A model generated the notes under the pieces. It worked only from the letters and a program-made list of their open reading frames with translations. It did not search any database and had not been told where the DNA came from. A DNA stretch of 64,000 bases, taken from the NCBI GenBank assembly GCA_963924555.1, contig OZ004583.1, forward strand, positions 2,141,501 through 2,205,500, in the 5' to 3' direction. The stretch comes from Crambe crambe (lineage: Eukaryota > Porifera > Demospongiae > Poecilosclerida > Crambeidae). Below, one piece after another: positions 30,553 to 58,241 of the stretch (its first letter is position 1; each line of letters opens with the position of its first letter). The translations under genes and the position numbers were made by a program.

Positions 30553-30782
30553 GAGGTTTGGTGTGTGCGCAGTAGCCAGTTTCTTGGTTCAAAACGACCC
30601 ACTTTTTTTTACGTTTCCAAGATGACTCTTTGAAATAGTGCCGTGAGCATGTGCAAATCTCGAGACAGGACGTGACGTATTGGCGCGCTTTTCAATTTTA
30701 GATCAAGTTTCCGGCTCAGATATCCGGGCATTAGTCAGAGTATAAAAGAGTATAAAAGAGTCTGGCTAGTGAGCTAAAGTTT
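30553..30782. promoter_or_regulatory. NRF1 5' flank
   Basis: A short gap between the NRF1 start and the stop of the kinase-Kelch gene. It contains GTGACGTATTGGCGCGC (about 30670), a CRE-like TGACGT next to a CG-rich stretch. About 85 bp of it (30648-30735) recurs at 34842-34926 beyond the second kinase-Kelch copy, at lower identity. Confidence 0.5.
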
Positions 30783-33700
30783 CTAGTGACTTGTCCCAAG
30801 AAGAATTAGTTCCATTTCAACACTATCACTGGTGCTCTCAAAAGAATCAATACTCATGTCTTCACTTCCTGCAATAATGAGCATCTTTCCCATCCCTCTG
30901 GTAACGAGGCCTGCCACACAGAGGCAACGGGCAGACTTCAAGTGACCCCACAATTCCCAGCTCCTAGACTTGGTGTCGTAAGCATTCACCTCATCAGTCA
31001 TTTCCCCATCAGCTTTCATCCCTCCAATGAATAGAACTGTGTTCATTTCCTCAACAGCAACAAAAGCTGCTTTTGTGACTGGAAACCTCATTACCTCACT
31101 CCACGGATTAGGTAGACTGCTGTAAGATAATGAACGTTTTAGCTTCTTGGTAATACTGGAGTGTCGTTGTGTTATAAGCTGCTGCAGCCCACACATGTAC
31201 ATGGAGGTCACCTGATCCCGAACCCCATCGATACCTCCAATCGCATAGATATTCCCATTACACACAAGAGCCGAGAGTGAAGTGGGTGTGATTGGTTTGG
31301 GTAAATCCACAGTACTGCTCCACTTGAGAGTAAAGATGTCAAGTATTTCAACAGTCTTCAGGAATGCTTGTTTCTGCTGTCCTCCCATGACAATGATGTA
31401 GTTCTCAGTACTAGCAGCTGCTGCACTGTGTCGCCTTGTTGGCATTAGAGGGATACTATCCATACTCCAGGACTCAGTTTCTGTCAGGACATAAACTTTA
31501 TTGGTAACTTCGCCTTTCTCCTTTCCTCCCACTGCAACCAGATTCTCTTCAAAGATTGCTAAAGTACTGTGATAGGTGGGACATTGTGAACGCACAACTG
31601 ACCACGTGTTATCAGTGGAATTGTAGTAGCGAATGAAATTCTGCCCACTACTCCGGCAATACATTCTGGTGCCTATTACTACTGCATCACAGCCTTTGTT
31701 TATGTCACTTGGTGTGAATTTGGGAACTGGAAGCCACTGGAAACTTTTTTTTGCTAATAACATAGCACTAGATCGAGTACCCTGATTTGTAGCTCCCCCA
31801 TCAGCGACTAATCCTATAGGAGGATTTTTACCCATATACATACTAGTCTTTGTACCTAAACCTGGTGGAAACTCTTCTCCAAATTTCTCCCACTGATCTT
31901 TTTTGGTATTGTGATCATCTCTTACTTGGAGCAACTCTATGCTTTCTTGCTTCCTACTAGCAATTACTTTTAATCTCTCCTCCAGCTCTCTATAATCTTG
32001 CTTCAACTTCTCCAATTCATCAAAAACCATCTTTTCTTCTTCAGCAGTTTTCCTCACTTTATTTTCCAATTTCTTCCTCTCTTCTTTCAATATTTCAATT
32101 TCAGCATGTGCAGATTCAAGATCTTTGTGCACCCCCAATTCTTCCTGCAAGCTTTGCTCGTATTTTTTACTCTGCCTATGATGACCGAAGTAGTCACACA
32201 GTGTAGTTGCTTGTGGTCTATTGGCAGGTTCGTCTGCGATGCAACTGAGGATAATAGGTCTGAAGGGGTGATGAAAGTCTATTAAACTCAAGTGATCCTT
32301 TCTTCTCTCGTGTTCGGGGACTGAGATAAAATTATATTGGGGTTCTTTGGTGATGATATGAAAACGATCTGTAGGTTCTGGATATTTTCTGGTCACTATC
32401 TGGATGGTAAGGACTCCAAGAGAAAAACAGTCAATCTTGTCTGTATGCACTTTCGATGAGACCTATATTATCATGATAAAAGTTTGATTAAGAAGGCAAG
32501 AATGGTTAGTAGTTGTAGGTTATTAAGCTGTATGAATGGTGAGTAGCAATAGTGTACTGGTTCTCTGTAGTACAGTTAGCTAGTACACCTCAGTTATCCG
32601 GATTTAGAAATAGTGCTACAAGCAATTTTAATGGATTTTAACAATACCAGCCCATAAACTATACAACACAGCATAACCACAACACTATTATTTTAATGTA
32701 CTTCACTTATCTGGACATCCAACATAAAGTAGGTCAGGTAACTACTCTATCTACAAATGTGGGTATACAGGTAGTAAAGGATCATAACTAACACATTTTT
32801 TTGATAATTTTTTATCACAACTCTATATGTGGAAATCCACTATGCATTATAACACAGCAACTACTAACTTGATGTGTCACTTTGATTTGTGACTGCATGG
32901 TTAATTTCTTAATCATAGCACTCCAATAGGGTCTCAGGCCTGAATGCTAATTCTAAATTCCTTCACCACCGCCTGACTGATTTTTGTCAAAACAAATTTG
33001 CTACATGCTAAATGATGCGTATATATATATATATATAGTGCAGCATATACATAGTGCCCTTTACAGTCTCAGCAGGACTTGCAACATTAGATACATCATA
33101 GTTGATAATGATTCTAATAATTCCCTTTATGATTACAAGTACCCTCTAGGGGGTAGCTGATGTCTCAGATATAACTAAGCTAAACAATAGATCCTGTCGA
33201 ATGTAGTGCCTTGTACCCTTTTGCTCCCTGCTAGTAAGGGGGATATGGTATACGTAGCTATTATGGAACAGTGGGATTATTATGAAACACTTTGACTCTC
33301 TTTCCAATGGGACAGTAAATTCCAAAGAATTACTGTTTTTTCTACACCTATAATAGTATTATAGATTTTACTTATAGTAACTTAAGGCTCACTGTTTCTG
33401 GAGCCATATACACATCAGCTCCTGGGACTTTTGTGACTGAACCTCCATCGCTCAACTCGTGGAGCTTGACCATTCCAAAGTCACTCAACTTTGCCCTGCT
33501 GTTGCCAATCAGCAGGACATTGTTACTTGAGAGATCTCTGTGGATAATATTGTTCAAATGCAAGAACGCTAACGCCAAAGAGATATCGTGTATAATTGTA
33601 ACTTGAATATGGAATGGAACTGGGACTTTGGAACGGGATAGGAATGTAGTCAGGTTCTCGTCCATTAGTTCCATCAAGAGAGCCGGCTGCTTGCAATCTT

Positions 33701-33980
33701 CCACCACTCCTAGGAACTGAACAATGTTGGGGTGATGGAGGTTGCTCAGAATCTCGCATTCCCTATTGAATCTGACCACAGGGAGGCGCCGATGGTACAG
33801 CTGTCTGCCTTCTTGTCCCACTCCAGGCTCCTCCTGAGCTAGCACTAAGTGGAGAATCTTGGCTGCACATATGAGATTGTCACACACGGCTTTATAAACA
33901 TTGCCATATGCTCCTGTTCCCAAGATGTCCTTGACACCTCTCTTTATCTCAACGTGTCTGAATCCTATTTTCTTGTCCAT
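30783..33980 (-). CDS. Protein kinase - coiled coil - Kelch repeat fusion, copy 1
   Basis: Two exons: 33980-33393 (196 codons, ends exactly after MAPET) and 32462-30783, 755 aa. The kinase domain is complete: glycine loop GTGAYGNVYK (21-30), lysine K41 in CAAKILH, catalytic HRDLSSNN (147-154), DFG (167-169) and APE (193-195), with the C-lobe in exon 2 (DCFSLGVLTIQI). Residues about 300-390 form a Glu/Lys-rich coiled coil. The remainder has Kelch-type repeats marked by GG pairs (AVGGKEKG, VMGGQQK, AIGGIDG, FIGGMKA). All residues for catalysis are present; substrate specificity is not predictable. The order kinase, coil, Kelch is not a common animal fusion. No signal peptide or membrane segment is seen, so it is probably cytosolic. 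A near-copy follows at 34999-38044. Confidence 0.85.
32585..32735. mobile_element. Tigger-like MITE remnant in the kinase-Kelch copy 1 intron
   Basis: Shares the words GCTACAAGCA, ATGGATTTTAACAA and CATAACCACAACACTATTAT with 54070-54352. Most of it is missing from the matching intron of copy 2, so it inserted in copy 1 after duplication or was lost from copy 2. Confidence 0.5.
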
Positions 33981-34609
33981 CTCCTCTTTTTAGTCATACC
34001 AGTGGTAGTCACTTCAAAAGAAAAAAAATTCCATGGAGTACCTATACAGCTACACAAGATTGCTAGCTAGTTAGCTATGGAAACAGCCTCTTATTATAAC
34101 CACTAGGAAACTACCTCTTTACAGTATAAAACTAGCTATAGCTACTGCAATATTATGAGCTACACAAGATTAGTTAGCTACCTGTAGCTAACTACCTCTT
34201 CATAGTAATACGGAAGAGTTATCTCACTCACCTATGTAGAAGTTGACTCTGTATGTGCAGAAGCTGCAGCCATACAAATACAGCTAGCTACATCCACATT
34301 AATTTTGTACATTCCCAACTAGATCACATGATAATTGTAAATGGATTCAGTAGTACTAGACACTTCCTGTTATAATCATTGCTATGATACCACATTCAGT
34401 AGGGTGTGTGTTAGAGAGATGATCTGGGAGCAATTAACTCCTATCCCATGCATCCACCCCCAAATCCCCTTCCCCCAATGCTCACATGGTCAGTAAATAA
34501 TTTTAATGGACAAAAGCATAAAATTTGATTACGATGTTGATTATAGAATGATAAAAATTAATGTTGGCATACTATGATACTAGAATGATAAAAAGAAACG
34601 AATTAAAAT
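33981..34609. other. Upstream region of kinase-Kelch copy 1
   Basis: No exon is seen. It is strongly similar to 38045-38694 and 55344-55936, the matching regions in the other cassette copies, so it is the conserved promoter plus TRIM 3' flank of the duplicated unit. Similarity right through the non-coding part indicates recent duplication. Confidence 0.65.
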
Positions 34610-34840
34610 ACTTGGAGTCTTTCAATCACAGATATACAAAAAACCATCCTTATCAACATTCACTCCATATGGATGCCTAAATTCGCCTTTGTTCTTCCCA
34701 GATTGTCCAAATGAGCTCCCCCATGGTGGTGTACACTTCCACATTCTGCTTTCCCCAGTTGGTTACGTAAATATATTCATCAGTGACACACACACCAGAA
34801 GGTTCCTTTAAGGAGTGGAGGAATTCACCTCTATTACTGA
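34610..34840 (-). pseudogene. TRIM-NHL 3' stub
   Basis: Matches only the last NHL repeats of the complete TRIM-NHL genes (for example the region encoding VTNWGKQNVEVYTT), with small internal deletions that break the frame. The similarity stops abruptly at 34840, where sequence related to the NRF1 5' flank begins. Confidence 0.85.
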
Positions 34841-34998
34841 GCATGTGAAAATCTCAAGACAGGAAGTGATGTTTGGCACGCTTTTCGATTTTAGACCGAG
34901 TTTCTGGCTCAGATACATATCTGGGTTGATTTCCACATTGGTTAAAGGGGTACGATAATTATGAACTTTACAAAGTATTTATTAGCTATTAGAAGTTT

Positions 34999-37900
34999 TT
35001 AGTGAAGAATTAGTTCCATTTCAACAGTGCTCTCAATACTCGTGTCTTCATTTCCTACAATAACCAGCACTTTTCCCATCTCTCTGGTAATGAGGCCTGC
35101 CACACAGAGGCAACGGGCAGACTTCAAGTGACCCCACAATTCCCAGCTCCTAGACTCAGTGTTGTAAGCATTCACCTCATCAGTCATTCCCCCATCAGCT
35201 TTCATCCCTCCAATGAGTAGAACTGTGTCCATTTCTTCAACAGCAATAAAAGCTGCTTTTGTGACTGGAAACTCCATTACCTCACTCCACAGATTAGGTA
35301 GACTGCTGTAAGATAATGAACGTTTTATCTTCTTGGTAATACTGGAGTGTCGTTGTGTTATAAGCTGCTGCAGCCCATACATGTACATGGAGGTCACCTG
35401 ATCCCGAATCCCATTGATACCTCCAATCGCATAGATATTCCCATTGCACACAAGAGCCGAGAGTGAAGTGGATGTGATTGGCTTGGGTAAATCAACAGTA
35501 GTGCTCCACTTGAGAGTAAAGATGTCGAGTATTTCAACAGTTTTCAGGAATGCTTGTTTCTGCTGTCCTCCCATGACAACGATGTAGTTCTCAGTACTAG
35601 CAGCTGCTGCACTGTGTCGCCTTGTTGGCATTGGAGGGATACGATCCATACGCCAGGACTCCGTTTCTGTCAGGATGTAAACTTTATTGGTAACTTCACC
35701 TTTCTCCTTTCCTCCCACTGCAATCAGATTCTCTGCAAAGATCGCTAAAGTACTGTGATGGGTGGGACATAATGAACACACAACTGACCACGTGTTATCA
35801 GTGGAATTGTAGCAGTAAATTAAATTCTGCCTGCTACTCCGGCAATACATTCTGGTGCCTATTACTACTGCATCACAGCCTTTGTTTATGTCACTTGGTG
35901 TGGATTTGGGAACTGGAAGCCATTGGAAATTTTTTTTTGCTAATAACGTAGCACTAGATTGAGAACCCTGATTTCTAGCTGCCCCATGAGTGACTATTTC
36001 AGCCAGAGGATTTTTTCCCATACTAGTCTTTGTAGCTAAATCTTGTGGAGAGTCTTCTTCAAACTTCACCAAATGCTCTCTGTTTTCTATGCTTTCTTGC
36101 TTCATACTAGCTATTCTCCCCTCCAACTCTCTATAATCTTGCTTCAACTTCTCCAACTCACCAAAAACCACCTTTTCTTCTTCAACAGTTTTCTTCACTT
36201 TATTTTCCAATTTCTTCCTCTCTTCTTTCAATATTTTGATTTCAGCATGTGCAGATTCAAGATCGTTATGCACCCCCAATTCTTCCTGCAAGCTTTGTTC
36301 ATATTTTTTACTCTGCCTATGATGACCAAAGTAGTCACACAATGTAGCTGCTTCTGGTCTATTGGCAGGTTCGTCTGCAATGCAACTGAGGATAATAGGT
36401 CTGAAGGGGTGATGGAAGTCTATTAAACTCAAGTGATCCTTTCTTCTCTCGTGTTCGGGGACTGGGACGAGGATTCCCTGATGATTGTATTGGGGTTCAT
36501 TGGTGATGATATGTTCGGTGTGATAACGATGACGATGTGTAGGTTCTGGGTATTTTCTGGTCACTATCTGGATTGTAAGGACTCCAAGAGAAAAACAGTC
36601 AATCTTGTCAGTATGCACTTTCGGCAAGACCTACATATTATGGAAGTTTGATTAAGAAGGCAAGAATGGTAGGTTATCAAGCTGTAATAGTGCACTGGAA
36701 TTAATTTGAAAACTTTCTCCGTATAATATAGTAGTTAGCTATAGTAGTCACTTTTAAGGTATTTTAACATAAAGTTGGTATACATAACTACGTAGCTAAT
36801 TTTATCACGACGACTGCCTACTCTTTAGCTAGCTATAGCTATAGAGGCTATATGTAGTATTATGGGAAATGGATCATAGGAGGAAATTCACCATGCATTA
36901 TAACTACTACACTAACTTGTCATTGATGTGTCACTTTGATTAAAGGACTGTTGTGAGAGCATGCATGGTTAATTTCTTAATCATAGCAATCCATTATTCA
37001 GGCCTGAATCCTCTCTACTTCTAAATTCCATCACCACCGGCTGACTGATTTCTGTCAAAACAAATTTGCTACATGCTAAATGATGCGCATAATATATAGC
37101 TAGTGCAATATGAGGCTTCCCTTCCTACTAGCTATACAGCCAACCTTTCAGCAGGACTTAGATACATACATCATAATTGATAATGATTCTAATGATTCCC
37201 TTATAATTTATGATTACAAGTACCCTCTAGGGGGTAGCTGATGTTTCAGATATGACTAAGCTATAGATTCAGTGCCTTGTGCTCTTTGGGATATGGTATA
37301 TAGCTAGCTATAGCTATTATGGAACAGTGGGATAATTATGAAACACTTTTGACTCTCTTTAAAGTAAATTCCACATAATTTCTGTTTTTATCTACCTAAA
37401 ATTAATAGTATATTTCGCACACAACAAACTATAATAATTTTTTATAGTAACTTAAGGCTCACTGTTTCTGGAGCCATATACACATCAGCTCCTGGGACTT
37501 GTGTGACTGAACCTCCATCGCTCAACTCGTGGAGCTTGACCATTCCAAAGTCACTCAATTTTGCCCTGCTGTTGCCAATCAGCAGGACGTTGTTACTTGA
37601 GAGATCTCTGTGGATAATATTGTTCAAATGCAAGAACGCTAACGCCAAAGAGATATCGTGTATAATTATAACTTGAATATGGAATGGAACTTTGGAACGG
37701 GATAGGAATGTAGTCAGGTTCTCATCCATTAGTTCCATCAAGAGAACCGGCTGCTTGCAATCTTCCACCACTCCTAGGAACTGAACAATGTTGGGGTGAT
37801 GGAGGTTGCTCAGAATCTCGCATTCCCTATTGAATCTGACCACAGGGAGGCGCCGATGGTACAGCTGTCTGCCTTCTTGTCCCACTCCAGGCTCCTCCTG

Positions 37901-38044
37901 AGCTAGCACTAAGTGGAGAATCTTGGCTGCACATGTGAGATTGTCACACACTGCTTTATAAACATTGCCATATGCTCCTGTTCCCAAGATGTCCTTGACA
38001 CCTCTCTTTATCTCAACGTGTCTGAATCCTATTTTCTTGTCCAT
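34999..38044 (-). CDS. Protein kinase - coiled coil - Kelch repeat fusion, copy 2
   Basis: Two exons: 38044-37463 (194 codons) and 36630-34999, 737 aa. The exon border is the same as in copy 1, directly after the APE motif. The kinase residues are intact (GTGAYGNVYK, CAAKILH, HRDLSSNN, DFG, APE). Compared with copy 1 it lacks two residues in a PVPFH repeat, gains a His/Tyr-rich insertion after KYPEPT, and has a shorter linker between the coil and the Kelch part (REHLVKFEEDSPQ versus a longer stretch in copy 1). Kelch GG motifs are retained (AVGGKEKG, VMGGQQK, AIGGING, LIGGMKA). Both copies keep open frames despite many substitutions, which suggests both are expressed and selected. It lies directly downstream of a complete TRIM-NHL gene on the same strand. 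Confidence 0.85.
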
Positions 38045-38694
38045 CTCCTCTTTTTAGTTATACCAGTGGCAGCCACTTCAAAAGAAAAAAAAATTCCTTT
38101 ATGGCTACACAAGATTGCTAGCTAGTTAGCTATGGAAACAGCCTCTTATTATAACCACTAGGAAACTTGCCTCTTTACAGTATTAAACTAGCTATAGGTA
38201 GCTAGGTATTATGAACTACAAGATTAGTTAGCTACCTGTAGCTAACTACCTCTTCATAGTAATCTTCTTGCGGAAGAGTTATCCCACTCACCTATGTAAA
38301 AGTTGACTCTGCATGTGCAGAAGGTGCAGCCATACAAATACAAATACATCTACATTTGTACAGTCCCAACTAGATCACATGATAATTGTAAATGGATTCA
38401 GTAGTACTAGACACTTCCTGTTATAATCATTGCTATTATATACCACGGTATGTGTTAGAGAGCTGATCTGGGAGCAATTAACTCCTATCCCATGCATCCA
38501 CCCCCAACCCCCCTCCCCCTCCCCCCAATGCTCACATGGTCAGTAAATAATTTTAATGGACAAAAAAAAAAAAAAAAAAAAAAGAAAAAAAAAAGCATAC
38601 AGTAAAATTTGATTAGCTATAAGTTGACATTACAGAATGATCAAATGAATGTTGGCATAGCTACTATAATACTAAAATGAGAAAAAGAAACAAA
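38045..38694. other. Region between TRIM-NHL A and kinase-Kelch copy 2
   Basis: Non-coding, homologous to 33981-34609 and 55344-55936. Includes an A-rich run (38563-38593). Confidence 0.6.
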
Positions 38695-40935
38695 CTAAAA
38701 TACTTGGAGTCTTTTATTAATACAATCACAGATATACAAAAAACCATCCTTATCAACATGAACTCCATATGGATACCTAAATTCACCTCTGTTCTTCCCA
38801 GATTGTCCAAATGAGGTCACGTGCTCCCCCATGGTGGTGTACACTTCAACATTCTGCTTTCCCCAGTTGGTTACGTAAATATATTCATCAGTGACACACA
38901 CACCGGAAGGTTCCTTCAACTCTTTTTCGCCAAAGGAGTAGAGGAATTCACCTCTATTACTGAAGACTTGAACGCAAGGATTCTTAGTGATGACACTGAA
39001 ATACAGGTTACCACGTTTGTCAGAAGACATTCGATTGAATAATCCAGTGCCTTTTTGAAGCGAAGCAAATTCCTTAACGTACTCCAAGCTTTTGGTGTAA
39101 CACTCGATATTACCTTTAATTCCACACACAATAACTTTATCTCCAACCACAATCAAATCGACATGTCCAGACTGTTTTCCAACTTGCTTTGCAGTTATTA
39201 TTGTCAGGTTCTTATCTGACTTGTAAATTGTACTGCTCCCCCAATCAACGAAGTAAATATTATCTTCACTGTCAACAGCCACACCATGGAGAGCTTGAAA
39301 GTTGTGCTTCCATCGTTTGATGCTTCTCAGCTTCTTTCCCTCCTTGTCCAACATCACAATGTCTCCCCCTCGTTCGGTCACAATCATCTCTCCCTTTGAA
39401 TTGAAGGCTACGTCAACTGGACAGTTCAGTCCAGGGATGATCTTGACAGGCTTACCCAGCTTACTTGGATGGATAGAGATAAACACAGGGAAGGGACTAC
39501 CAGCTACTTCCTGGCCATTCACAGTAACAGTCAGTTCATGAAGTCCACGAACAGGGGGCGTGTAGGAAATACGATATTCATTGCCTTCACTTCGATCAAT
39601 GTTGCACTTGATGTTTGATCCATTCATCAGTGACTTCAATTGGCCTGTGACAGCACACTCTTGTTTGGTGTACTTTCCATTAGTGAGTTTAGGTGTTAGG
39701 GAGAATTCACATTTCTTGTTGACTTCAGCAATTTTGATTCCTTCACCAACTACTGTACACTTTGTAGGATCAATGCTAAGAGAAATTATCTTTGCTTTAG
39801 TCTGACAAAGCTTCTTCAGGTCTTCAGCACAGCTCACCTCCACCCCTATGTCCACCTCCTCCACTGGATCCAGACTCATTCTTTCCTTTTCAATCTCTCT
39901 GTCAATGCGACTCTTGATCTCAGCATACATGCCCATGAACATGACTTCGTCTTTTGTCGAATGTTCCAAACATTGTTCAGTGAATTCAATCACACTTTGA
40001 ATGGCTGCACAATAAGTGGACAGATTTTTCTTCTGGCCAGAGAGATGCTCAAATTTCCCCATCACTTTTGATGCAGCCTCTTTCAACAATTTTTGTCTGT
40101 GATTTTCGAGAATCTTTTGAAATTCGTCAAAAGAGCTGTTGATGTGGTCGGCTATAGAATCTCCCTGGGCCTCTATCTCGTGCTGTGTGGTTTGTATCTC
40201 CTCCACAGCATGCGACAACTCCACCTTCACTTTTCTCAAAGGCTCCAAATCTGCCATCAGCTTCTTCTTCATCTCGGGAGCAGACGTTTTTACGAACTCA
40301 TAAATGTGACTCAAATGATCTTTGACAGTGCAATCACGACATATGAGAAGGTTGCAGTCAAAGCAATAGATCTTCAATGGTTCCTCATGCTTTTTACACA
40401 CTTGAAGTGGCGATTCTTCCATAACGATCTCTTCAGCTCCTTCTTTAAGCTCGTCTAGCGAAGCAATCTTGTGGCCAGCAAAAATTTTCATTCGATGATG
40501 TTGTTTGACACATTCTGTGCATATGAACTGGGTACACTGTCGACAGAAGGCTTCAGCCTTGCTCCCACAACACATTTCACACTTGGCGTCCACCATACCG
40601 TGAGCTCGTTCCAGCTTGGAGTGTAACTCTTTCATGCGATTGAGGAAGAAAGCTGTCGGGAGCTGATCTATGTTGCCCTGGGGGAGGATGGTGTCTTTAC
40701 GACACTCGGGGCAAGAGAATGGCTTGTTGATACCAGTCCTCAGGGTCAACCTGTGGATGCACTGCTTGCAGTAGTAGTGGCAGCAAGGAAGAACCTTGGG
40801 TTCTGTGTAGTGATCATGACAGATGGCACACGTGATCTCCTTCTCAAGATCTTCCACACTTTTCTCCAGGTCTTCCATACTCTTAATGTCTTTTTCAGCC
40901 ATGTATTCCATACTCTTAATGTCTTTTTCAGCCAT
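38695..40935 (-). CDS. TRIM-NHL RING-type ubiquitin ligase A
   Basis: A single-exon gene of 746 codons. Order: a RING finger (C36-C78; CAICHDHY, CCHYYCKQC, CPEC), two B-boxes (about 119-156 CEMCCGSKAEAFCRQC and 180-211 CKKHEEPLKIYC), a coiled coil (about 215-340), a filamin-type immunoglobulin domain (about 395-510; GSPFPVFISIHPSKLGKP) and a C-terminal NHL beta-propeller (about 515-746, ending LQVF). This is the TRIM2/TRIM3/TRIM71 architecture. Such proteins act as E3 ubiquitin ligases and many bind RNA or protein through the propeller. All zinc ligands of the RING look present. The N-terminus contains a tandem 10-residue duplication (MAEKDIKSME repeated) absent from TRIM-NHL B. It is intronless, as is its copy at 55937-58138, with which it is highly similar. 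Confidence 0.93.
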   Translation of the reverse strand: MAEKDIKSMEYMAEKDIKSMEDLEKSVEDLEKEITCAICHDHYTEPKVLPCCHYYCKQCIHRLTLRTGINKPFSCPECRKDTILPQGNIDQLPTAFFLNRMKELHSKLERAHGMVDAKCEMCCGSKAEAFCRQCTQFICTECVKQHHRMKIFAGHKIASLDELKEGAEEIVMEESPLQVCKKHEEPLKIYCFDCNLLICRDCTVKDHLSHIYEFVKTSAPEMKKKLMADLEPLRKVKVELSHAVEEIQTTQHEIEAQGDSIADHINSSFDEFQKILENHRQKLLKEAASKVMGKFEHLSGQKKNLSTYCAAIQSVIEFTEQCLEHSTKDEVMFMGMYAEIKSRIDREIEKERMSLDPVEEVDIGVEVSCAEDLKKLCQTKAKIISLSIDPTKCTVVGEGIKIAEVNKKCEFSLTPKLTNGKYTKQECAVTGQLKSLMNGSNIKCNIDRSEGNEYRISYTPPVRGLHELTVTVNGQEVAGSPFPVFISIHPSKLGKPVKIIPGLNCPVDVAFNSKGEMIVTERGGDIVMLDKEGKKLRSIKRWKHNFQALHGVAVDSEDNIYFVDWGSSTIYKSDKNLTIITAKQVGKQSGHVDLIVVGDKVIVCGIKGNIECYTKSLEYVKEFASLQKGTGLFNRMSSDKRGNLYFSVITKNPCVQVFSNRGEFLYSFGEKELKEPSGVCVTDEYIYVTNWGKQNVEVYTTMGEHVTSFGQSGKNRGEFRYPYGVHVDKDGFLYICDCINKRLQVF

Positions 40936-41536
40936 GTATTATGTCAAGATATAGATACAAATACAGAGTAGACTGGATCGAGTCTGGTTCACGAGACCGT
41001 AGATAGAGCTAGCTAGAGGAGAGAAGGGATTGGCAACGGGCTCACGTGCGCCATTGCGTTGTACAAAGTGGCGCGTTTCGCGCGGGAATTTGGTGGGAAA
41101 GAGTGAAAGTTAGGATTGTGCACCCCCCTCAAGCCAGTGGTCTAAATTTGGGGCTTGGGGGGGATGCAAGGTCACCTTAAGGTCACCACGTGGCTGTTTG
41201 GGGTTGTTTTCGGGTAAGAATAGGACTTCAATTGCTAGCTGAGGCTCTGTTTAGCACATTTTGGACCAGTAGTAGTTCTACAGCAGCCCTTCCTGCTTGA
41301 TCAGCTCCAGGTATGTGTTAAGGATGGATAGAGAAAGCTTAAGGATGCGTTAATTTAGCCTAGACTGGGGTGTAATTAAGTGTAGTGTTTGGTTGTATTG
41401 GTTTGTTGTTGTGTACCTGTTGCTGGTTCATTTTTCTTATGTTTGGTGTCATTTTAATGCTAGGGATGCTCCAGGTACACATTAGTACAATGAATTCTAT
41501 TTGGGGAGTTTTTAGTTCATTTTTCTTGTATTTTTT
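40936..41536. other. TRIM-NHL A 5' flank
   Basis: The first roughly 55 bp match the flank of TRIM-NHL B, then the two diverge. CG-rich words (GGCGCGTTTCGCGCGGG near 41071) suggest a promoter. No exon is seen. Confidence 0.5.
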
Positions 41537-42719: not shown

Positions 42720-45700
42720 ATAGGTTGCGTCTCCTGACCCGCCAGCCTCTGGTTCAGCATCCTCCGCATCCTCCACATCCGAATCTGTACCGTCTCCGTC
42801 TGTACTATCCCCACCTGTACCAGTACCATCTGCATCGGTACCCATAACACTACAGGACCTTCATTTGTTCATGTCTATCCATGAATTTAACAATGGATGG
42901 GTTGATCAAACAAAACTGGAGAAAATACGATTGTGTAAACTTTCCGATGATCCTTGTACTTCAGTTACACATTCTTTAATAATTGATCACGACTTAACGT
43001 GGACCTGCTTTTTCTACGGTCATGAAGTTAAATCTCTTCCTCCTTTCAACTCTTTCCCTAATATTATTGATCATGTGTCTCTTCAGCGACTCCTTGAAAC
43101 ATTGACTCCTGTCGTCTTTGCCCAGGAAATCCTGATAAACAGTTCCTTTCTTTGTGTGATGTGAGGAAGGGGAAGTTTTTCTCGGTTGACAAAAAAATTA
43201 CAGCATATGAAGATGCAAACTGCAAGATTAAGTATGATGGTGTGGAGTATGATCGTACAATACGAACAACAGGCTGCAGTATTTTGGTTTCAAGTGGGCC
43301 ATGCCTTTCATGTAAAAAATTTCGATCATCATTGAGATCCATGTATAGCAGGTGGCAGAAAAAGTCTCAGTCTCCGAAGAAGTTCAGTAATAATCGCTAC
43401 TTAACCACACCACAAAAGGCTAAAAAGTTGGCTCGTCTGCAAGCTCGGGCACTGTCTGCTGAAAGGGAACTCCAGTTGTTGAATGAAAAAATACAGAAGC
43501 AAAGGGCATAACAGTTGATTCTGATCTCCACAATGATTTAAGTTCCATCATGAAGGATAGTTCCTCATCTGTTCTAGCAAAATTTCCGGAAGGGAGTTTC
43601 CAGCGTCTCTTCTAGGAGCAACAATTTAAAGCATTATGTGTATCTTGTGCTAAGAACATGAAGTGGCATCCGATGATGGTGCGCTGGTGCCTCAATTTGA
43701 AGCTTCTTTCGACATCATGCTACCATGCTCTCAGGACGTCAGGATTTGTTAAGTTACCGTCAGAGCGTACGTTACGCGATTATACGCACTACGTCAAGTC
43801 ACGCTCGGGATTCCAGGATGACATCGATGATGACCTTGCTAAAGAGGCTAACATTAAAGAACTGCCTGAGTATAAGAAGTATATCGTTTTGTTAATAGAT
43901 GAAATGAAAATCAAAGAATCTTTGGTGTGTGACAAAATAGGCACGAAAGTTATTGGATTTGTGGACCTGGGGTCATTCAATAATCAGCTGGTTCAATTTG
44001 AGGAATCATGCAATACACCCCCAATTGCCTCGCACATGCTGGTCCTGATGGTACGTGGAATCTTCATGAAATTTGAGTATCCATACGCCCATTTTCCGAC
44101 TCACAAACTGTCTGGAGCTACATTGTTTCCTATTATGTGGGAAGCTGTGGAACGTTTGGAGTTCTTGGGGTTTAAGGTGATAGTCATTACCCTCTCCCAA
44201 CAGGAAATTTTTTAGTCTACATGGCTCTTACAAGACTAAAAATCCTTACAGTGAAGATCGATATATATTTTATGTCTGACCCGCCTCACCTCCTCAAAAC
44301 GGCAAGAAATTGTTGGTCTCACAGTGGGGCACACGGAAGGACAAGGGACCTGTGGGTGAGGTCAATGTAGCAGACTAACCCATTGGTTAGAAAAAGCGGA
44401 GTACCAACCACACCTTAGGAGATTTCCACTTCACACAAGTTTGGTGGGCCTTGTGTTTCTGATCCCCTAATCTCGGACTTGTCAATTGCCATGGTTATAG
44501 AGGGGTGGCCAATTCTTTTCAGGGGTAAATAAGGGACTTTTGAAGTGGCCTCAATATGTACAAAGGAGGTGTCCAGATTATAGGTTGTGTCCAAGTGTGC
44601 ATAGACTAAGCTATGGTTTGCATGTGTTATGTAGATTGATGGTGAAGAGATATCTTGGTTACACCTCACTGAGCTCTATGATGCTCAAGTTGGAATGGCT
44701 TCTAGTTCAAGTGGATTGAAGCTGCTTACGAAACTATCTCGTGACCATATTGAGCTAACGTCTTTTTTCTCGGATGAGGGTGGATCTTGCCACTCAGGTA
44801 CTACTTCTTCATTGTTTGTTGAAATTGGTTACTGTTGTTCAATGTGCAACACAGGCCTTGAGTGAATCAATGGCCAATGGACTGAACTATTATGGATGGT
44901 CAGGAACCAAGGAAACTGAGAAATTTATAAGAGTTTTTGACAAGTTTTTTGACTGTGTCAAATGTCCGCTCTATCAAGGAAGCAGCAACCAAGAGGAAAC
45001 CTGTTCAAGAGTCCTGACGATGCCAGGCTGAAGGTACAATAGTTCCCTAATCTGGACTAAATTTGGCCACCACTGTACAGATGCACTCAGGGTGCACTTG
45101 TAGTAGATAAGGCCTTAGCCAAACCTTATTCTTACCTGGCAGGGGAGGCTCCACCAAATTTGTGTTGGGGGGCTAAACTGTGTTTTAATTTCCCCCCTAA
45201 TAGTAAGCCATGGTTATTTGAAGGTTTTGATCATGCAGTCAATTGCTAATACCAATCAGGATATGCATGCTTTGTCTGGTCATTGATCTGAGATCTCAAA
45301 GAGAACAAGCCCATATCTTTTGCTGTGATCTGAATATAAAAATGTTTTGTAGCAGGCACCACATTAGTGAGAATTGCAAGTGGTGATTAGCACTTAATTT
45401 TTAATGCAGTGGTTGGAGAGAGACTTCCTTGGCTACTTGGATCACTGGGAAGAGTCTGTGTGGGCTCGAGAGGGTTTTACACCAGGAGAAAAGGCCATGA
45501 TGCTTCTTAGCAGAGAAACCTGAGAAGGTCTCAGAATGACAGGTGTGCACCATAAAGAATTTTCAAATGTGGCCACAATACACATGGTGGTACATAATGG
45601 GGTGCGCTAAATAGAATACTTTTACTAAGTGGAACTTATGAACAAAGGACATGTTGGGACCTGCCGTTTTGCCCTTAATAAAGGTGTTGCTGGTTAATAC

Positions 45701-47768: not shown

Positions 47769-47771
<3 letters not shown>

Positions 47772-47802: not shown

Positions 47803-47805
<3 letters not shown>

Positions 47806-48601: not shown

Positions 48602-48841
48602 TTATTAAATCATAATAGTGGGGTTCCATTATACTAAAGTAGCCATGGTTGTCATTAACATAGCTAGTATGGTACAGTGGGGAAGGATATATGTATCTAT
48701 AGGGTTACCTTTACCATGACATTGACAAGCGGTGTCATCACTTTTTTTTTTTTCCACGGACACCTTCAATTAATTAACTATTGTAATTGCATAATAATAA
48801 TTCTTTTTACATAATAAAATAATCAGCATGTGTGTAGCTTA

Positions 48842-50330
48842 TTAAAATATTTGGAGTCTGTTATTATAACTATCACAAATGTACAAAAAACCATCCTTAT
48901 CAACATTCACTCCATAGAGATACTTGAATTTGCCATCATTACTACTCCACTGTCCAAATGAGGTCACATGCTCCCCCTTGGTGGTGTATACTTCTATGTT
49001 GTACTTTCCCTTGTGAGCAACACAAATATATTCATCAGTTAAGCACACTCCATCAGCTCTTTCTCACCGAATGAGTGGAGGACTTCACCTCCATCACTGA
49101 GGACTTGGATGCAAGGATTCTTATTGATGACACTGACATAAAGGTTACCATGTCCAGGGATGATCTTGACAGGCTTGCCCAGTTTACTTGGATGGATGGA
49201 AATAAGCACAGGGAAAGGACTACCAGCTACTTCCTGGTCATTCACAGTGACAGTCAGTTCATGATGTCCACGAACAGTGGGTGTGTACGAAATACGATAC
49301 TCATCGCCTTCACTTCGATCAATGTTACACTTGACATTCAAATCGTTCATCAGAGACTTCAATTGGCCTATGACAGCACATTCTCGTTTAATGCGTTTTC
49401 CATTAGCTAGTGAGTTTAGGTGTTAGGGAGAAATTATATTTTTTTGTTAATCTCGGCATACTTCACCAGATACTATACACTTAGCAGGATCGAAAATAAT
49501 TTCGCTTTAGTCTGACAGAGCTTCTTCAGATCTTCAGCACAGCTCACCTCCACCCCTAGGTCCACCTCTTCCACTGGGTCCAGACTCCTCCCTTCCTTGC
49601 AGTGCTCTTTAATCTCCCTGTCAATGCAGCTAACAGACTCTTCTCCTGGCCAGAGAGATGCTCCAACTTCTCCCTCACTTTCAATGCAACCTCATTCAAT
49701 AGTCCTTGCCTGTAAGGATTTTTTTCGAGTTCATCAAAAGAGCTGTTGATGTGGTTGGCCACAGAATCTCCCTGGTCCTTTATCTTGTTTTTTGTGGTTT
49801 GTATCTCCTCCATAGCATGTGACAACTCCATCTTCACTTTCTTCAAAGGCTCCAAATCTGCCACCAGCTTCTTCTTCATCTTGGGAGCACACTCTTTCAC
49901 GAACTCGTAGTTCTTACCCGAATGGTCCTTGATAGTGCAATCATGACAGATGAGAAGGTTGCAGTCAAAGCAATACATCTTCATCGGTTCATCATGCTCT
50001 TTACATATCTGAAGTGGCGATTCTTCCATAACAATGTCTTTAGCTCCTTCTTTAAGCTCGTCTAAAGAAGCAATCTTGTGGCCAGCAAAAATTTTCATTC
50101 GATGATGTTATTTGATACATTCTGCATATATGAACTGGGTACACTGTCGACAAAAAGCTTTGGTCTTGCTCCCAGAACACATTTCACACTTGGCGTCCGT
50201 GAGCTCGTTCCAGTTTGGAGTGTAATTCTTTCATGCGATTGAGGAAGAAAGCTGTCAGGAGCTGATCTATGTTGCCCTGGGGGAGGGTGGTGTCTTTACG
50301 ACACTCAGGGCAAGAGAATGGCCAGTCCGC
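48842..50330 (-). pseudogene. TRIM-NHL C, decayed
   Basis: Homologous to the TRIM-NHL genes but broken. It is cut within the RING at 50330 (starts at the CPEC part), shifts frame in the B-box and coiled-coil regions (longest frame 50098-49556), and jumps from the filamin domain (PVKIIPG) straight to a late NHL repeat (NLYVSVINKNPC), deleting roughly 120 codons. It then ends in a separate frame (49048-48842). It is more divergent from A and B than they are from each other, so it is an older paralogue. Confidence 0.88.
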
Positions 50331-52901: not shown

Positions 52902-53895
52902 CTTGTAAAACTCTTGCTGCTTATGACATTATTGTATTTTATACTTGACTATAAAGAAAGTTTTACACCACTTGCTAGGAGCATCCATTGAAGTAGTGTA
53001 AATTTTCCCCCATAGCAGTGATATTAGCTACTATCAGGGAAAATTTTACACGAGTTAGCCCCTCTATTACTTGCCAGTAATGAAGTAGTGTAAAATTTCC
53101 TATAGTAATAATAGTGTATTTTAATAGGGTGAATTTTATATGAGTTAGCCCCTTCGTTATTTACTAATACTGAAGTACGTAGTGTAAAATTTGAAACAGC
53201 TAATAAAGGGAAGTTTTATACCAAATTTTCCCTAGAGTAACTGAAGGTTGAAATCACTTAAAATTTTCCCAGAGTAACTGAAGGTTGAAATCACTTAAAA
53301 TTTCCCCTTGAGTAACTGTAGGCAGAAGTCACCTAAAATTTTCCCTATAGCTAGTAACTGTAGGCAAAATACCTATTTTTACACAAACGTCTTTCAATAT
53401 TAAAATTTAGTACTTCACCAAGAGATGTCTCCTGACATCCACCAATATGAGGGTACCGCTCTTTAAGTAGAATTTGGGCACAGTTAATATTACCTCGAAA
53501 TGGGATCAATCTCTTTATTCTGTATATCCACCTACGTACATATATACGCACCATTATCTGAAGCTACCCGATGTACGTATATGTAGGGATTGTTAGCTGG
53601 CCCTAGCCCTACTCCTACATAGGTGGTGGAACAGGTCAGGCCAGTCAATATTTTGGGAAAAACAAGGTTAATTATTAAGTAGCAAAACAGAAGAAAGATG
53701 CTCAAAATTAGCAAATCGTAGTCAGTGGTCTGTGGGATTACATTTCAATTTCGGGCCTGACCAATACACATCTGCCCTAGCCCTAGCCCTAGCACTAGCC
53801 CTAGCCTGGATACAGAACGAAGATTGATCCCATTTCCATCCTTCATTCCTACCCTTACTTTTTTGAGCAGTGGTCATCCCTACATTTCAAGGATA

Positions 53896-54019
53896 CACTG
53901 TAAAAATGAAAGTGTTTACTGCACACCATTTTGTCCCAATACACACACTGTTTTTGTTTTTGGTGTGTGTAGCTATTGGGACAATTTAGTGTGCAGTACA
54001 CACTTTCGTTTTTACAGTG
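53896..54019. mobile_element. 124-bp hairpin MITE with TA target duplication
   Basis: CACTGTAAAAATGAAAGTG at the left end is mirrored by CACTTTCGTTTTTACAGTG at the right end (one mismatch). The pairing continues inward through TGCACAC and TTGTCCCAATA, so nearly the whole element folds. TA flanks both ends (53894-53895, 54020-54021). Confidence 0.8.
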
Positions 54020-54069
54020 TATAGTTATAATTATTTCCTGCAAGCTGTAGCATAGAGTGTATATACAGT

Positions 54070-54352
54070 GTACATCTTATCCAGGCTGAAATCTGGAATA
54101 CATGTACTACAAGCATTTTCAATGGATTTTAACAATTAGCTATTTGAGATTTTTTTTTTTTGAGTGCTTTGTACAGGCAACTGCATAACAATAGTCAGTC
54201 TGTTCTAGGCTGTTAGTACTAGCCCATAATTATCAAAAATACTACATAGCATAACCACAACACTATTATTTTAATGCACTTTACTTATTTCACTCCAGCC
54301 TGGAAAAAAAAGTTTGTACTGTATCAGGATAACCAAGGTTCAGACTGTATAA
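54070..54352. mobile_element. Tigger-like MITE remnant
   Basis: Shares ACTACAAGCA, ATGGATTTTAACAA and CATAACCACAACACTATTAT with 32585-32735, and the end word GGATAACCAAGGTT with 23505-23724. Confidence 0.45.
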
Positions 54353-54384
54353 TTAACCATACAGTAAAGTATAAAGATAAAAAA

Positions 54385-54913
54385 TTAAAATACTTGGAGT
54401 CTGTTATTATTACAATCACAAATATACAAAAAACCATCCTTATCAACATGAACTCCATATGGATGCCTAAATTCACCTCTGTTCTTCCCATATTGTCCAA
54501 ATGAGGTCACATGCACCCCCATGGTGGTATACACTTCAACATTCTGCTTTCCCCAGTTGGTCACATAAATATATTCATCAGTGACACACACACACCAGAA
54601 GGCTCCTTCAGCTCATTTTTGCCAAATGAGTAGAGGAATTTACCTCTCTTACTGAAGACTTGGACGCAAGGATTCTTAGTGATGACACTGAAATACTCTG
54701 TCAGAAGACATTCATTGACATTCGACATTCGATTGAATGATCCGGTGCCTTCTTGAAGCGAAGCAAATTCCTTAACATACTCCAAACTTGAACTTTTATA
54801 CTTTTTAACATATATATTCTTTTTATATTTTTTAACATACTTTTGGTGTAACACTCGATATTACCTTTAATTCCACACACAATAAATTGTTTATCTTTAA
54901 CCACAATTCAACG
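54385..54913 (-). pseudogene. TRIM-NHL E, 3' fragment
   Basis: Covers only the last NHL repeats (VTNWGKQNVEVYTT, YGVHVDKDGFLYICDCNNN) in two frames, with an inserted AT-rich stretch (about 54795-54845) that repeats part of the gene's own sequence. The similarity to TRIM-NHL ends at about 54913, next to the kinase fragment. Confidence 0.85.
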
Positions 54914-54926
54914 ATTTTCATTTGCT

Positions 54927-55343
54927 GAAGAACGCTAATGCCAAAGAGATATCGTGTATAATTGTAACTTGAATATGGAATGGAACTGGGACTTTGGAAT
55001 GGGATAGGAATGTAGTCAGGTTCTCGTCCATTAGTTCCATCAAGAGAATCGGCTGCTTGTGAATGTTTTCTTCCACCACTCCTAGGAACTGAACAATGTT
55101 GGGGTGATGGAGGTTGCTCAGAATCTCACATTCCCTATTGAATCTGACCACAGGGAGGCGCTGATGGTATAGCTGTCTGCCCACTCCAGGCTCCTCCTGA
55201 GCTAGCACTAAGTGGAGAATCTTGGCTGCACATGTGAGATTGTCACACACTGCTTTATAAACATTGCCATATGCTCCTGTTCCCAAGATGTCCTTGACAC
55301 CTCTCTTTATCTCAACGTGTCTGAATCCTATTTTCTTGTCCAT
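54927..55343 (-). pseudogene. Kinase-Kelch copy 3, truncated after the N-lobe
   Basis: Begins with the same MDKKIGFRHVEIKRG start (ATG 55343) and keeps the glycine loop and the lysine, but lacks five residues in the loop after EEPGVG (four codons plus change) and gains two near GVVEENIHK. It breaks off at ISLALAF, before the catalytic HRD, and reads into a stop at 54918. The catalytic loop, DFG, C-lobe and all Kelch repeats are missing. A product would be a catalytically dead N-lobe fragment of 141 aa. Confidence 0.85.
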
Positions 55344-55936
55344 CTCCTCTTTTTAGTTATACCAGTGGCAGCCACTTCAAAAGAAAAAAAATTCCATGGA
55401 GTATCCGGCTACACAAGATTGCTAGCTAGTTAGCTATGGAAATAGTCTTATTATTTAACTAGGAAATTGCCTCTTTACAGTATTAAACTAGCTAGGTACT
55501 GCAATATTATGAGCTACACAAGATTAGCTAGCTGTAACTACCTCTTCATAGTAATTTTCTTGTGGAAGAGTTATCCCACTGACTCACTTACCTATATAAA
55601 AGTTGACTCTGCACGTGCAGAAGCTACATCTACATTTGTACATTCCCAACTAGATCACATGATAATTATAAATTTCCTGCATAGATTCAGTGAGAGTACA
55701 ATCGTTGCTATGATACTGCATTCAGTAGGGTATGTGTTAGAGAGATGATCTGGGAGCAATTAACTCCTATCCCATGCGTCCACCCCCAATCCCCCTCCCC
55801 CCTCCCCCCAATGCTCACATGGTCAGTAAATAATTTTAATAGACAAAAAAAAGCATACACAGTAAAATTGGATTACAATGGAATGATAGAATCAATGTTG
55901 GCATACTATAATACTAGAATGATAAAAAGAAACGAA
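55344..55936. other. Region between TRIM-NHL B and kinase copy 3
   Basis: Non-coding, homologous to 38045-38694 and 33981-34609; no exon. Confidence 0.6.
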
Positions 55937-58138
55937 TTAAAATACTTGGAGTCTTTTATTAATACAATCACAGATATACAAAAAACCATCCTTATCAACA
56001 TGCACTCCATATGGATGCCTAAATTCACCTTTGTTCTTCCCAGATTGTCCAAATGAGGTCACGTGCTCCCCCATGGTGGTGTACACTTCAACATTCTGCT
56101 TTCCCCAGTTGGTTACGTAAATATATTCATCAGTGACACACACACCAGAAGGCTCCTTCAACTCTTTTTCGCCAAAGGAGTGGAGGAATTCACCTCTATT
56201 ACTGAAGACTTGGATGCAAGGATTCTTAGTGATGACACTGAAATACAGGTTACCATGTTTATCAGAAGACATTCGATTGAATAATCCAGTGCCTTCTTGA
56301 AGCGAAGCAAATTCCTTAACGTACTCCAAGCTTTTGGTGTAACACTCGATATTACCTTTAATTCCACACACAATAACTTTATCTCCAACCACAATCAAAT
56401 CGACATGTCCAGACTGTTTTCCAACTTGCTTTGCAGTTATTATTGTCAGGTTTTTATCCGACTTGTAAATTGTACTGCTCCCCCAATCAACAAAGTAAAT
56501 ATTATCTTCGCTGTCAACAGCCACACCATGGAGAACTTGAAAGTTGTGGTTCCATCGCTTGACCCTTCTCAGCTTCTTTCCCTCCTTGTCCAACATCACA
56601 ATGTCTCCCCCTCGTTCTGTTACAATCATCTCTCCCTTTGAATTGAAGGCTACGTCAACTGGGGAGTTCAGTCCAGGGATGATCTTGACAGGCTTGCCCA
56701 GCTTACTTGGATGGATGGAGACAAACACAGGGAAGGGACTACCAGTTACTTCCTGGCCATTCACAGTAACAGTCAGTTCATGACGTCCACGAACAGGGGG
56801 TGTGTAGGAAATACGATATTCATTGCCTTCACTTCGATCAATGTTGCACTTGATGTTTGATCCATTCATCAGTGACTTCAATTGGCCTGCGACAACACAC
56901 TCTCGTTTGGTGTACTTTCCGTTAGTGAGTTTAGGTATTAGGGAGAATTCTGATTTTTTGTCGACTTCAGCAATTTTGATTCCTTCACCAACTACTGTAC
57001 ACTTTGTAGGATCAATGCTAAGAGAAATTATCTTTGCTTTAGTCTGACAGAGCTTCTTCAGGTCTTCAGTACAGCTCACCTCCACCCCTATGTCCACCTC
57101 CTCCACTGGATCCAGACTCACTCTTTCCTTTTCAATCTCTCTGTCAATGCGACTCTTGATCTCAGCATACATGCACATGAACATGACTTCGTCTTTTGTC
57201 GAATGTTCCAAACATTGTTCAGTGAATTTAATCACACTTTGAATGGCTGCACAAGAAGTGGACAGATTTTTCTTCTGGCCAGAGAGATGCTCAAATTTCC
57301 CCATCACTTTTAATGCAGCCTCTTTCAACAGTTCTTGTCTGTGATTTTCAAGAATCTTTTGAAATTCATCAAAAGAGCTGTTGATGTGATCGGCCACAGA
57401 ATCTCCCTGAGCCTCTATCTCGTGCTGTGTGGTTTGTATCTCCTCCACAGCATGCGAAAACTCCACCTTCATTTTTCTCAAAGGCTCCAAATCTGCCATC
57501 AGCTTCTTCTTCATCTCAGGAGCAGACGTTTTTACGAACTCATTATTGTGACCAAAATGATCTTTGATAGTGCAATCACGACAGATGAGAAGGTTGCAGT
57601 CAAAGCAATAGATCTTCAATGGTTCTTCATGCTTTTTACACACCTGAAGTGGTGATTCTTCCATAACAATAGCTCCTTCTTTAAGCTCATCTACAGAAGC
57701 AATCTTGTGGCCAGCAAACGCTTTCATTCGATGATGTTGTTTGACACATTCTGTGCATATGAACTGGGTACACTGTCGACAGAAGGCTTCGGCCTTGCTC
57801 CCAGAACACATTTCACACTTGGCGTCCACCATACCATGAGCTCGTTCCAGTTTGGAGTGTAACTCTTTCATGCGATTAAGGAAGAAAGCTGTCGAGAGCT
57901 GATCTATGTTGCCCTGGGGGAGGATGGTGTCTTTACGACACTCGGGGCAAGAGAATGGTTCGTCGATACCAGTCCTCAGGGTCAGCCTGTGGATGCACTG
58001 TTTGCAGTAGTAGTGGCAGCAAGGAAGAACCTTGGGTTCTGTGTAGTGATCGTGACAGATGGCACACGTGATCTCCTTCTCAAGATCTTCCACACTTTTC
58101 TCCAGGTCTTCCATACTCTTAATGTCTTTTTCAGCCAT
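55937..58138 (-). CDS. TRIM-NHL RING-type ubiquitin ligase B
   Basis: A single-exon gene of 733 codons, highly similar to TRIM-NHL A along its whole length and with the same domain order (RING, two B-boxes, coiled coil, filamin-type Ig, NHL propeller). Differences: it lacks the N-terminal 10-residue duplication and three residues before VMEESPLQVC, and has scattered substitutions (for example MKAFAGHK for MKIFAGHK, CTIKDHFGHNNEF for CTVKDHLSHIYEF). RING and B-box zinc ligands are intact. The open frame and mainly conservative changes suggest both A and B are functional E3 ligases. It lies upstream of the truncated kinase copy 3, in the same order as A and kinase copy 2. Confidence 0.93.
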   Translation of the reverse strand: MAEKDIKSMEDLEKSVEDLEKEITCAICHDHYTEPKVLPCCHYYCKQCIHRLTLRTGIDEPFSCPECRKDTILPQGNIDQLSTAFFLNRMKELHSKLERAHGMVDAKCEMCSGSKAEAFCRQCTQFICTECVKQHHRMKAFAGHKIASVDELKEGAIVMEESPLQVCKKHEEPLKIYCFDCNLLICRDCTIKDHFGHNNEFVKTSAPEMKKKLMADLEPLRKMKVEFSHAVEEIQTTQHEIEAQGDSVADHINSSFDEFQKILENHRQELLKEAALKVMGKFEHLSGQKKNLSTSCAAIQSVIKFTEQCLEHSTKDEVMFMCMYAEIKSRIDREIEKERVSLDPVEEVDIGVEVSCTEDLKKLCQTKAKIISLSIDPTKCTVVGEGIKIAEVDKKSEFSLIPKLTNGKYTKRECVVAGQLKSLMNGSNIKCNIDRSEGNEYRISYTPPVRGRHELTVTVNGQEVTGSPFPVFVSIHPSKLGKPVKIIPGLNSPVDVAFNSKGEMIVTERGGDIVMLDKEGKKLRRVKRWNHNFQVLHGVAVDSEDNIYFVDWGSSTIYKSDKNLTIITAKQVGKQSGHVDLIVVGDKVIVCGIKGNIECYTKSLEYVKEFASLQEGTGLFNRMSSDKHGNLYFSVITKNPCIQVFSNRGEFLHSFGEKELKEPSGVCVTDEYIYVTNWGKQNVEVYTTMGEHVTSFGQSGKNKGEFRHPYGVHVDKDGFLYICDCINKRLQVF

Positions 58139-58241
58139 GTATTATGTCAAGATATAGATACAAATACAGAGTAGACTGGATCGAGTCTGGTTCGCGAGAT
58201 TAAGGACTACAATGGCAAACCATGAACCTTGACCTCTAGTA

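Follow-up and report, generated by a model that had tools for sequence, protein, structure and literature searches.

Kinase-Kelch and TRIM-NHL families of the sponge Crambe crambe: an enzyme, a coiled coil and a propeller with diversifying loops in candidate recognition proteins

Sponges lack adaptive immunity, and how they distinguish self from microbes and neighbors is still largely open. Keap1 and the KLHL proteins are BTB-Kelch adaptors of cullin ligases, and the NHL domain is conserved in the best-known members of TRIM class VII. This class is covered, as subfamily C, by a published listing of TRIM subfamilies (PMC3503706), and three reports describe protein kinases with Kelch repeats in Entamoeba and trypanosomatids (PMC2939887, PMC1266030, PMC8519429). 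In the HET-D and HET-E (HNWD) proteins of Podospora, one study places the positively selected WD40 codons in the d-a loop and b-c turn, on one face of the propeller (PMC1805685). Among the titles listed in our literature search, whose scope left out subscription papers and bioRxiv, none dealt with hypervariable Kelch kinases or with sponge kinase-Kelch/TRIM pairs, and we claim no absence in print. Here we analyze a stretch of 64,000 nucleotides of the Crambe crambe genome (the window; C5:2141501-2205500, C5 being our handle for contig OZ004583.1 of assembly GCA_963924555.1; genome 143 megabases (Mb) in 119 contigs), in which kinase-Kelch genes, encoding a protein kinase with a coiled coil and a Kelch propeller, lie among TRIM-NHL genes, encoding a RING-B-box-filamin-NHL protein. 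The gene models were read from sequence alone. We hold with moderate confidence that these genes belong to two separately expanded families of recognition proteins that share one layout, in which an enzyme and a coiled coil precede a propeller with diversifying loops.

The two kinase-Kelch genes that can be read through in the window, A and B, both on the minus strand, combine kinase, coiled coil and Kelch propeller with the catalytic Lys, HRD and DFG in place (HRDLSSNN in A), as an earlier sequence-only reading of this DNA had it, and their Kelch repeats exceed the Pfam cut-off. In both, according to the predicted splices, a single intron interrupts the kinase domain directly after the APE motif; the joined exons of A would encode a protein of 755 amino acids, and its Kelch region also matches a KLHDC2/KLHL20-type Kelch profile (1.6e-18). 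The kinase is probably of TKL type, its best matches among solved kinase domains including TNNI3K, BIK1 and IRAK4, and the nearest solved Kelch domains are those of KLHL20, KLHL12, KLHL2 and Keap1 together with designed propellers. Pfam scans matched no BTB or BACK domain in the window proteins and 21 family frames and no NACHT or NB-ARC domain in the window proteins and the family frames elsewhere. Eight protein pieces contain no clear membrane segment (top 19-residue hydropathy 1.73, within folded domains), and both families are probably cytosolic.

The fusion of kinase and Kelch, which the earlier reading had called unusual, is not a one-off, having the published precedents cited above and a large family in this genome. 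A search with the kinase exon gave 75 related loci (39 clusters), three of them in the window; this set is the best 75 of 150 matches, cut at E 2.7e-31 by our own choice, and its size is a lower bound. Thirty copies were read outside the window, a broken fragment in L010 being excluded: 22 have Kelch, two have an AIG1 exon, and the slices of the other six were not decisive. Because some relatives encode kinase and Kelch in a single open frame (6 of 21 in one scan and two of five kinase frames in another), the fusion exists in the family; in the remaining 15 of the 21, a kinase-coil frame is followed by a separate frame for Kelch (13) or AIG1 (two). The catalytic Lys, HRD and DFG are invariant in all 21 aligned family kinases. 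A text search of 31 entries found neither an HRD nor a DFG pattern in L032a and L032b (C15) and no DFG in L031a-c (C16); the two C15 kinases (L032:595-2592 and L032:2961-4379), to judge by these motifs, are possibly inactive. In the kinase tree of 31 entries the copies from the window form a long-stemmed branch next to an intronless C5 group (support 92/80), apart from the C3 group. Searches outside this genome, sensitive to close relatives only, found two kinases of 29-31% identity in prokaryote genome contigs and no kinase relative in viral contigs.

In the C3 clade of the family, the strongest signal of selection lies in the propeller. We compared codon site models M1a and M2a with our own script, taking twice the difference in log-likelihood (2ΔlnL, hereafter 2dL) as the statistic. 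For seven Kelch exons of the C3 clade 2dL was 98.7 (p 3.6e-22), and 93.1 on the kinase tree; six held-out C3 Kelch exons, unused in defining the sites, gave 104.1, and all 13 together 212.7, whereas the maximum in 40 data sets simulated without positive selection was 6.2 (true tree, shorter fits). Eight slices had been fetched for the held-out set, of which L036, L037, L038 and L041 were used and L039, L040, L042 and L043, which gave no matching frame, were dropped; L021 (cut by the slice end) and L026 (a Kelch frame without adjoining kinase) completed it. The kinase domain of the same clade has a ratio of nonsynonymous to synonymous divergence (dN/dS, omega) of 0.18-0.19 and 2dL of 0.03 (seven genes) or 0.76 (eight genes), the non-significant M2a fit placing 11 codons in a class at omega 1.27. 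Pairwise values run the same way: between L017 and L018 on C3 the kinase has dN 0.013 and dS 0.156 and the Kelch dN/dS components are 0.080/0.057, and in other C3 pairs Kelch dN is 0.11-0.20 against dS of 0.10-0.42.

The selected Kelch codons of this clade lie mostly in loops. All of the first eight fall in two loop types that occupy 47 of 302 codons (P 2e-7, with the loops defined afterwards), namely the D-A loops, which lead into the inner strand of a blade, and the B-C loops, which follow its second strand; their definition was guided by sequence register to solved or designed Kelch propellers. For the six held-out exons the loop definition was settled in advance: 9 of their 12 selected codons lie in loops, one of the three outside being an insertion column next to a loop, 10 of the 12 columns with four or more residues do so (P 4e-7 for these columns), and the ratio of nonsynonymous to synonymous differences (pN/pS) is 1.45 in loops versus 0.79 elsewhere. 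Over all 13 exons, nine of ten selected codons are in loops, the exception being an insertion column that adjoins a loop. In Keap1 the registers of these residues hold the contacts with the substrate Nrf2.

The same pattern recurs in the TRIM array of C5, which extends past the pair in the window over at least 13 further listed TRIM places. For the NHL propeller of 12 array genes, T1 and T3 of the window included, 2dL was 124.3, and of 15 selected codons 12 fall in the corresponding loops, which were again delimited afterwards and make up 60 of 262 codons (P 2e-6). Nine array genes gave 6.6 for the RING/B-box part (p 0.036, one site) against 68.4 for NHL, and 104.0 when the NHL of these nine was fitted on the RING/B-box tree. 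Since both sets of selected sites fall in equivalent loops, two unrelated propellers, Kelch and NHL, vary in the same kind of loop. From their register, the selected loops may form one binding face, and because in the recent paralogue groups tested the enzyme end is conserved while the propeller loops are under diversifying selection, different copies should bind different ligands. Recognition by β-propellers, suggested earlier from domain content, thus gains backing of a new kind in the groups tested, where both propeller types have diversified in their loops.

In the model that we propose for the putative TKL kinase-Kelch and RING ligase-NHL proteins, the coiled coil would self-associate and the propeller would select the target: ligand on the propeller would cluster the protein through the coiled coil, and clustering would turn on the enzyme, so that kinase-Kelch would phosphorylate, and TRIM-NHL ubiquitinate, either the bound target or partners further downstream, the outcome being a step in innate sensing of non-self or altered self. 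Kinase and ubiquitin ligase activity, ligand binding, coiled-coil clustering and an immune role are all predictions of this model. In two other sponges, one report has one Kelch-motif gene each going down after microbial products (PMC6208332). Such down-regulation fits a role in recognition without identifying the kinase-Kelch family.

The propellers might instead diversify for endogenous targets, as a developmental or metabolic adaptor repertoire rather than for non-self. Kelch and NHL domains of other animals bind the animal's own proteins or RNAs (Keap1 with Nrf2; Brat and TRIM71 on RNA), and some copies here look constrained (L012a/b), but an omega class of 7-20 at 4-8% of codons, with the enzyme end conserved, is what one would sooner expect of a target that keeps changing, and we consider this explanation unlikely while giving it real weight. 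Another use for a variable face would be intragenomic or viral nucleic-acid defense, the NHL face, and perhaps Kelch, tracking RNAs or proteins of viruses or transposons as TRIM5 does with another domain. This explanation draws on relatives whose NHL top faces bind RNA, on TRIM ligases that include antiviral restriction factors with positively selected loops, and on a P-element-like fragment inside the window's cluster; a single transposon fragment is no evidence of function, however, nothing in the present data points to RNA binding or antiviral activity, and we judge this explanation improbable.

Several results weigh against diversifying recognition, some of them from the window's own genes. 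A and B are identical at seven of the eight hypervariable Kelch positions, the seven being those that can be aligned, and 8 of their 34 Kelch differences lie in loops (51 of 281 columns), which is no enrichment. The comparison of dN/dS between copies that the earlier reading called for divides: in several C3 Kelch pairs dN is near or above dS, whereas the contrast between kinase and Kelch in A/B is not significant (p 0.096). The Kelch of L012a/b looks constrained (dN/dS 0.24), 3 of the 12 differences between T1 and T3 fall at the 15 selected NHL sites, and in C3 TRIM pairs NHL dN/dS is 0.5-0.94, above the RING/B-box part and not above 1. The C3 coiled coil also gives a signal (2dL 15.6, eight genes), the number of Kelch columns with five or more residues (8 of 302) is inside the simulated range of 0-9, and a structure prediction of Kelch from two window copies reached a predicted local distance difference test (pLDDT) score of 32 and was discarded. 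The models, finally, are self-scripted, and gene conversion is visible in two places. Between A and B, 4 of 139.5 synonymous sites differ in exon 1 versus 39 of 352.8 in exon 2 (Fisher p 0.0024), so conversion is suggested by the closer likeness of exon 1 at silent sites. Two tandem kinase-Kelch genes, L010a/b (L010:5440-7533 and L010:8816 to L011:891), scarcely differ from the kinase through the first Kelch blades and diverge strongly in the final ones; as their sequences read, they are a mosaic from conversion or domain exchange. Given these null A/B comparisons, diversification is demonstrated for the C3 Kelch clade and the TRIM array but not for A and B.

Could relaxed constraint and conversion between paralogues have mimicked positive selection throughout? 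The visible conversion, the raw count of highly variable columns and the self-written script would allow it, yet the signal persists on the tree of the kinase part and in six held-out exons, sits for the most part in corresponding loops across several blades of two unrelated kinds of propeller, and is lacking in the kinase domain of the same C3 clade; we regard such an artefact as very unlikely and retain the reading of two families with diversifying propeller loops.

The genes of the window (Table 1) do not form the unit that their order suggests. The window self-comparison shows A and B as head-to-tail copies of a segment of about 4.1 kilobases (kb) with a junction at 34838/34840, and because this junction falls inside the last TRIM repeats, A has only about 250 base pairs (bp) of TRIM tail upstream. 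The T3 block repeats T1 together with the spacer and the opening ~420 bp of kinase sequence, and breaks off at ~54928. The duplicated segments overlap and the pair was not copied as a whole, T1-B being the sole place where both genes stand complete side by side. In the earlier reading a kinase-Kelch gene directly follows a RING-B-box-filamin-NHL gene of the same orientation, which is true at T1-B, and this pair recurs three times with its intergenic DNA; the intergenic DNA is indeed present in three copies (identity 90.8% for A/B, 84.8% for B/C and 86.4% for A/C), the whole pair in one. In both T1 and T3 the two B-boxes, filamin and NHL are above the Pfam cut-offs in a single frame, and the RING scores 25.1 and 24.1 bits, respectively, against a cut-off of 25.2, with the C3HC4 ligands legible in the sequence.

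Table 1. Kinase-Kelch and TRIM features of the window, in window coordinates.
Feature	Position	Strand	Content and basis
Kinase-Kelch A exon 1	33393..33980	-	ATG start through APE motif; donor ACA|GTGAGC; Pkinase 2.5e-31
Kinase-Kelch A exon 2	30783..32462	-	Kinase C-lobe, coiled coil, Kelch propeller, stop; Kelch_1 2.3e-14
Kinase-Kelch B exon 1	37463..38044	-	Catalytic residues kept; Pkinase 1.5e-30
Kinase-Kelch B exon 2	34999..36630	-	C-lobe, coiled coil, Kelch, stop; Kelch_1 4.7e-17
Kinase-Kelch C	54928..55343	-	5' part of kinase exon only; breaks before HRD loop
TRIM-NHL T1	38695..40938	-	RING, two B-boxes, coiled coil, filamin, NHL; adjoins kinase-Kelch B on its upstream side
TRIM T2	48841..50322	-	T1 relative interrupted by stops and frameshifts; not followed by any kinase match
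TRIM-NHL T3	55937..58141	-	Frame intact; 94% identity to T1
TRIM 3' remnant T4	60274..60811	-	Self-comparison, protein mapping
TRIM 3' remnant (NHL tail) before kinase-Kelch A	34589..34849	-	Self-comparison, protein mapping
TRIM 3' remnant fused to broken kinase C	54371..54907	-	Self-comparison, protein mapping
T1-to-kinase-B intergenic DNA	38054..38697	-	Recurs at 33990-34608 and 55353-55939

Other features were seen around these genes. A frame with an Nrf1 DNA-binding domain (PF10491, 1.9e-92) at 28879-30588 on the minus strand adjoins kinase-Kelch A, and a P-element-like transposase fragment (TNP-like RNase H, PF21787) lies amid the TRIM copies at 43616-44212 on the plus strand. A self-complementary stretch of ~130 bases at 53893-54022 is probably a small foldback element, and positions 3718-4176 are a tandem repeat with a unit of ~74 bases.

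Beyond the window, TRIM and kinase genes are neighbors at the level of chance. A TRIM-like gene lies within 10 kb of 2 of the 39 kinase clusters, the window's included, where 1.3 are expected (P 0.38), and the counts at 5 kb (2/39, P 0.24) and 20 kb (3/39, P 0.32) are no different in kind; the null is 5000 within-contig shifts, six contig sizes being known and the rest estimated. The 177 TRIM-like loci tested, a lower bound, are the union of a B-box search (best 150 of 426 candidates, 122 genes after removal of second hits of the same gene), a filamin search (best 150 of 624, only TRIM-size frames being retained, by eye) and the P0003 search (best 60 of 611). Among the 60 closest TRIM relatives listed, T1 and T3 alone are within 10 kb of a family kinase. 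At C3:5.911-5.918 Mb a kinase-Kelch gene is preceded, at a distance of ~4.3 kb, by an intact TRIM-NHL frame of the same orientation; this TRIM was excluded from the test because it had been found only by reading beside the kinase, which would bias the count. At C3:6.47 Mb the order is reversed and both open TRIM frames stop before any NHL repeats. With linkage at chance level the TRIM/kinase neighborhood is no conserved unit, and on the duplication map and the linkage test together we reject pairing as a unit. Elsewhere on this contig, three TRIM genes appear a second time, each with an unchanged score and each displaced by 56,848 bases (C5:2264870-2365696), a repeat that is either a recent segmental duplication or an assembly duplicate.

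That kinase and ligase act on one target by phospho-degron logic, and that the stretch was duplicated for this reason, has very little probability in our view: T1-B and T3-C do share strand and order with 85-91% of the intergenic DNA kept, and C3:5.911-5.918 Mb repeats the order, but the pair is whole only once in the window, its linkage does not exceed chance, 58 of the 60 listed TRIM relatives lie more than 10 kb from family kinases, and C3:6.47 Mb has the order reversed and TRIM frames without NHL repeats. The adjacency in the window looks like a local accident of duplication, in which the edge of the tandem TRIM array would have come beside a kinase-Kelch gene and local duplications would later have copied the stretch piecemeal. 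The earlier emphasis is thereby corrected, the gene neighborhood being incidental and the propeller loops the signal.

The propeller can itself be replaced. Two genes at C3:7.05-7.06 Mb (L026:5371-2980 and L027:3302-930) have an exon for an AIG1/GIMAP GTPase in place of Kelch, with phase-0 splice sites, and their kinases nest in a tree group of ten entries (support 100/100) whose other members carry Kelch. Because the donor is in phase 0 (14 of the 15 kinase exons examined, both AIG1 genes among them), C-terminal exons are exchangeable without change of frame. Coordinates alone point to two further AIG1 frames (C10:8.310 Mb and C6:5.766 Mb), each following a family kinase of the same orientation at 2-3 kb. 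AIG1/GIMAP GTPases as such have 96 matches in the genome, often clustered (C3:8.59-8.61 Mb, C5:8.67-8.75 Mb, C11:6.95-6.98 Mb).

Beyond two families of recognition proteins, we put forward, tentatively, a wider proposal: that they form a germline-encoded repertoire of intracellular receptors with the order enzyme, coiled coil, hypervariable propeller, which evolved at least twice in one genome and includes exchange of Kelch and AIG1 exons. In animals such a repertoire would parallel the incompatibility receptors with propellers of fungi, and it would be a candidate source of immune or allorecognition specificity in sponges. The analysis names concrete genes and a handful of loop codons as likely determinants of specificity, finds the same solution in two unrelated propellers, and opens the question to population sequencing and binding assays.

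Set beside described systems, the kinase part has TKL kinases (TNNI3K, IRAK4, BIK1) among its nearest solved domains, and these lack Kelch and carry other accessory domains. Keap1 and the KLHL proteins offer the nearest solved Kelch domains, and the selected residues stand in the substrate-contact registers of Keap1, whereas here the partner of Kelch is a kinase and no BTB was matched. The Kelch kinases of Entamoeba and trypanosomatids, compared by description only, likewise join kinase and Kelch in one protein, but the passages that describe them have few copies and do not mention hypervariable loops. With TRIM class VII (TRIM2, TRIM3, TRIM71 and Brat-type) the TRIM-NHL genes have in common RING, B-boxes, coiled coil, filamin and NHL, and differ in forming tandem arrays with hypervariable NHL loops. 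The HNWD proteins are fungal and combine HET and NACHT with WD40 repeats in concerted evolution, in contrast to a kinase or RING, a coiled coil and Kelch or NHL, with no NACHT match, in the sponge. By analogy, kinase-Kelch and TRIM-NHL proteins would work like HNWD or NLR-type receptors while not being members of those groups, no nucleotide-binding domain having been matched. What they share with HET-D and HET-E is an effector end joined to a propeller in which, by sequence register, selection falls in the same two loops.

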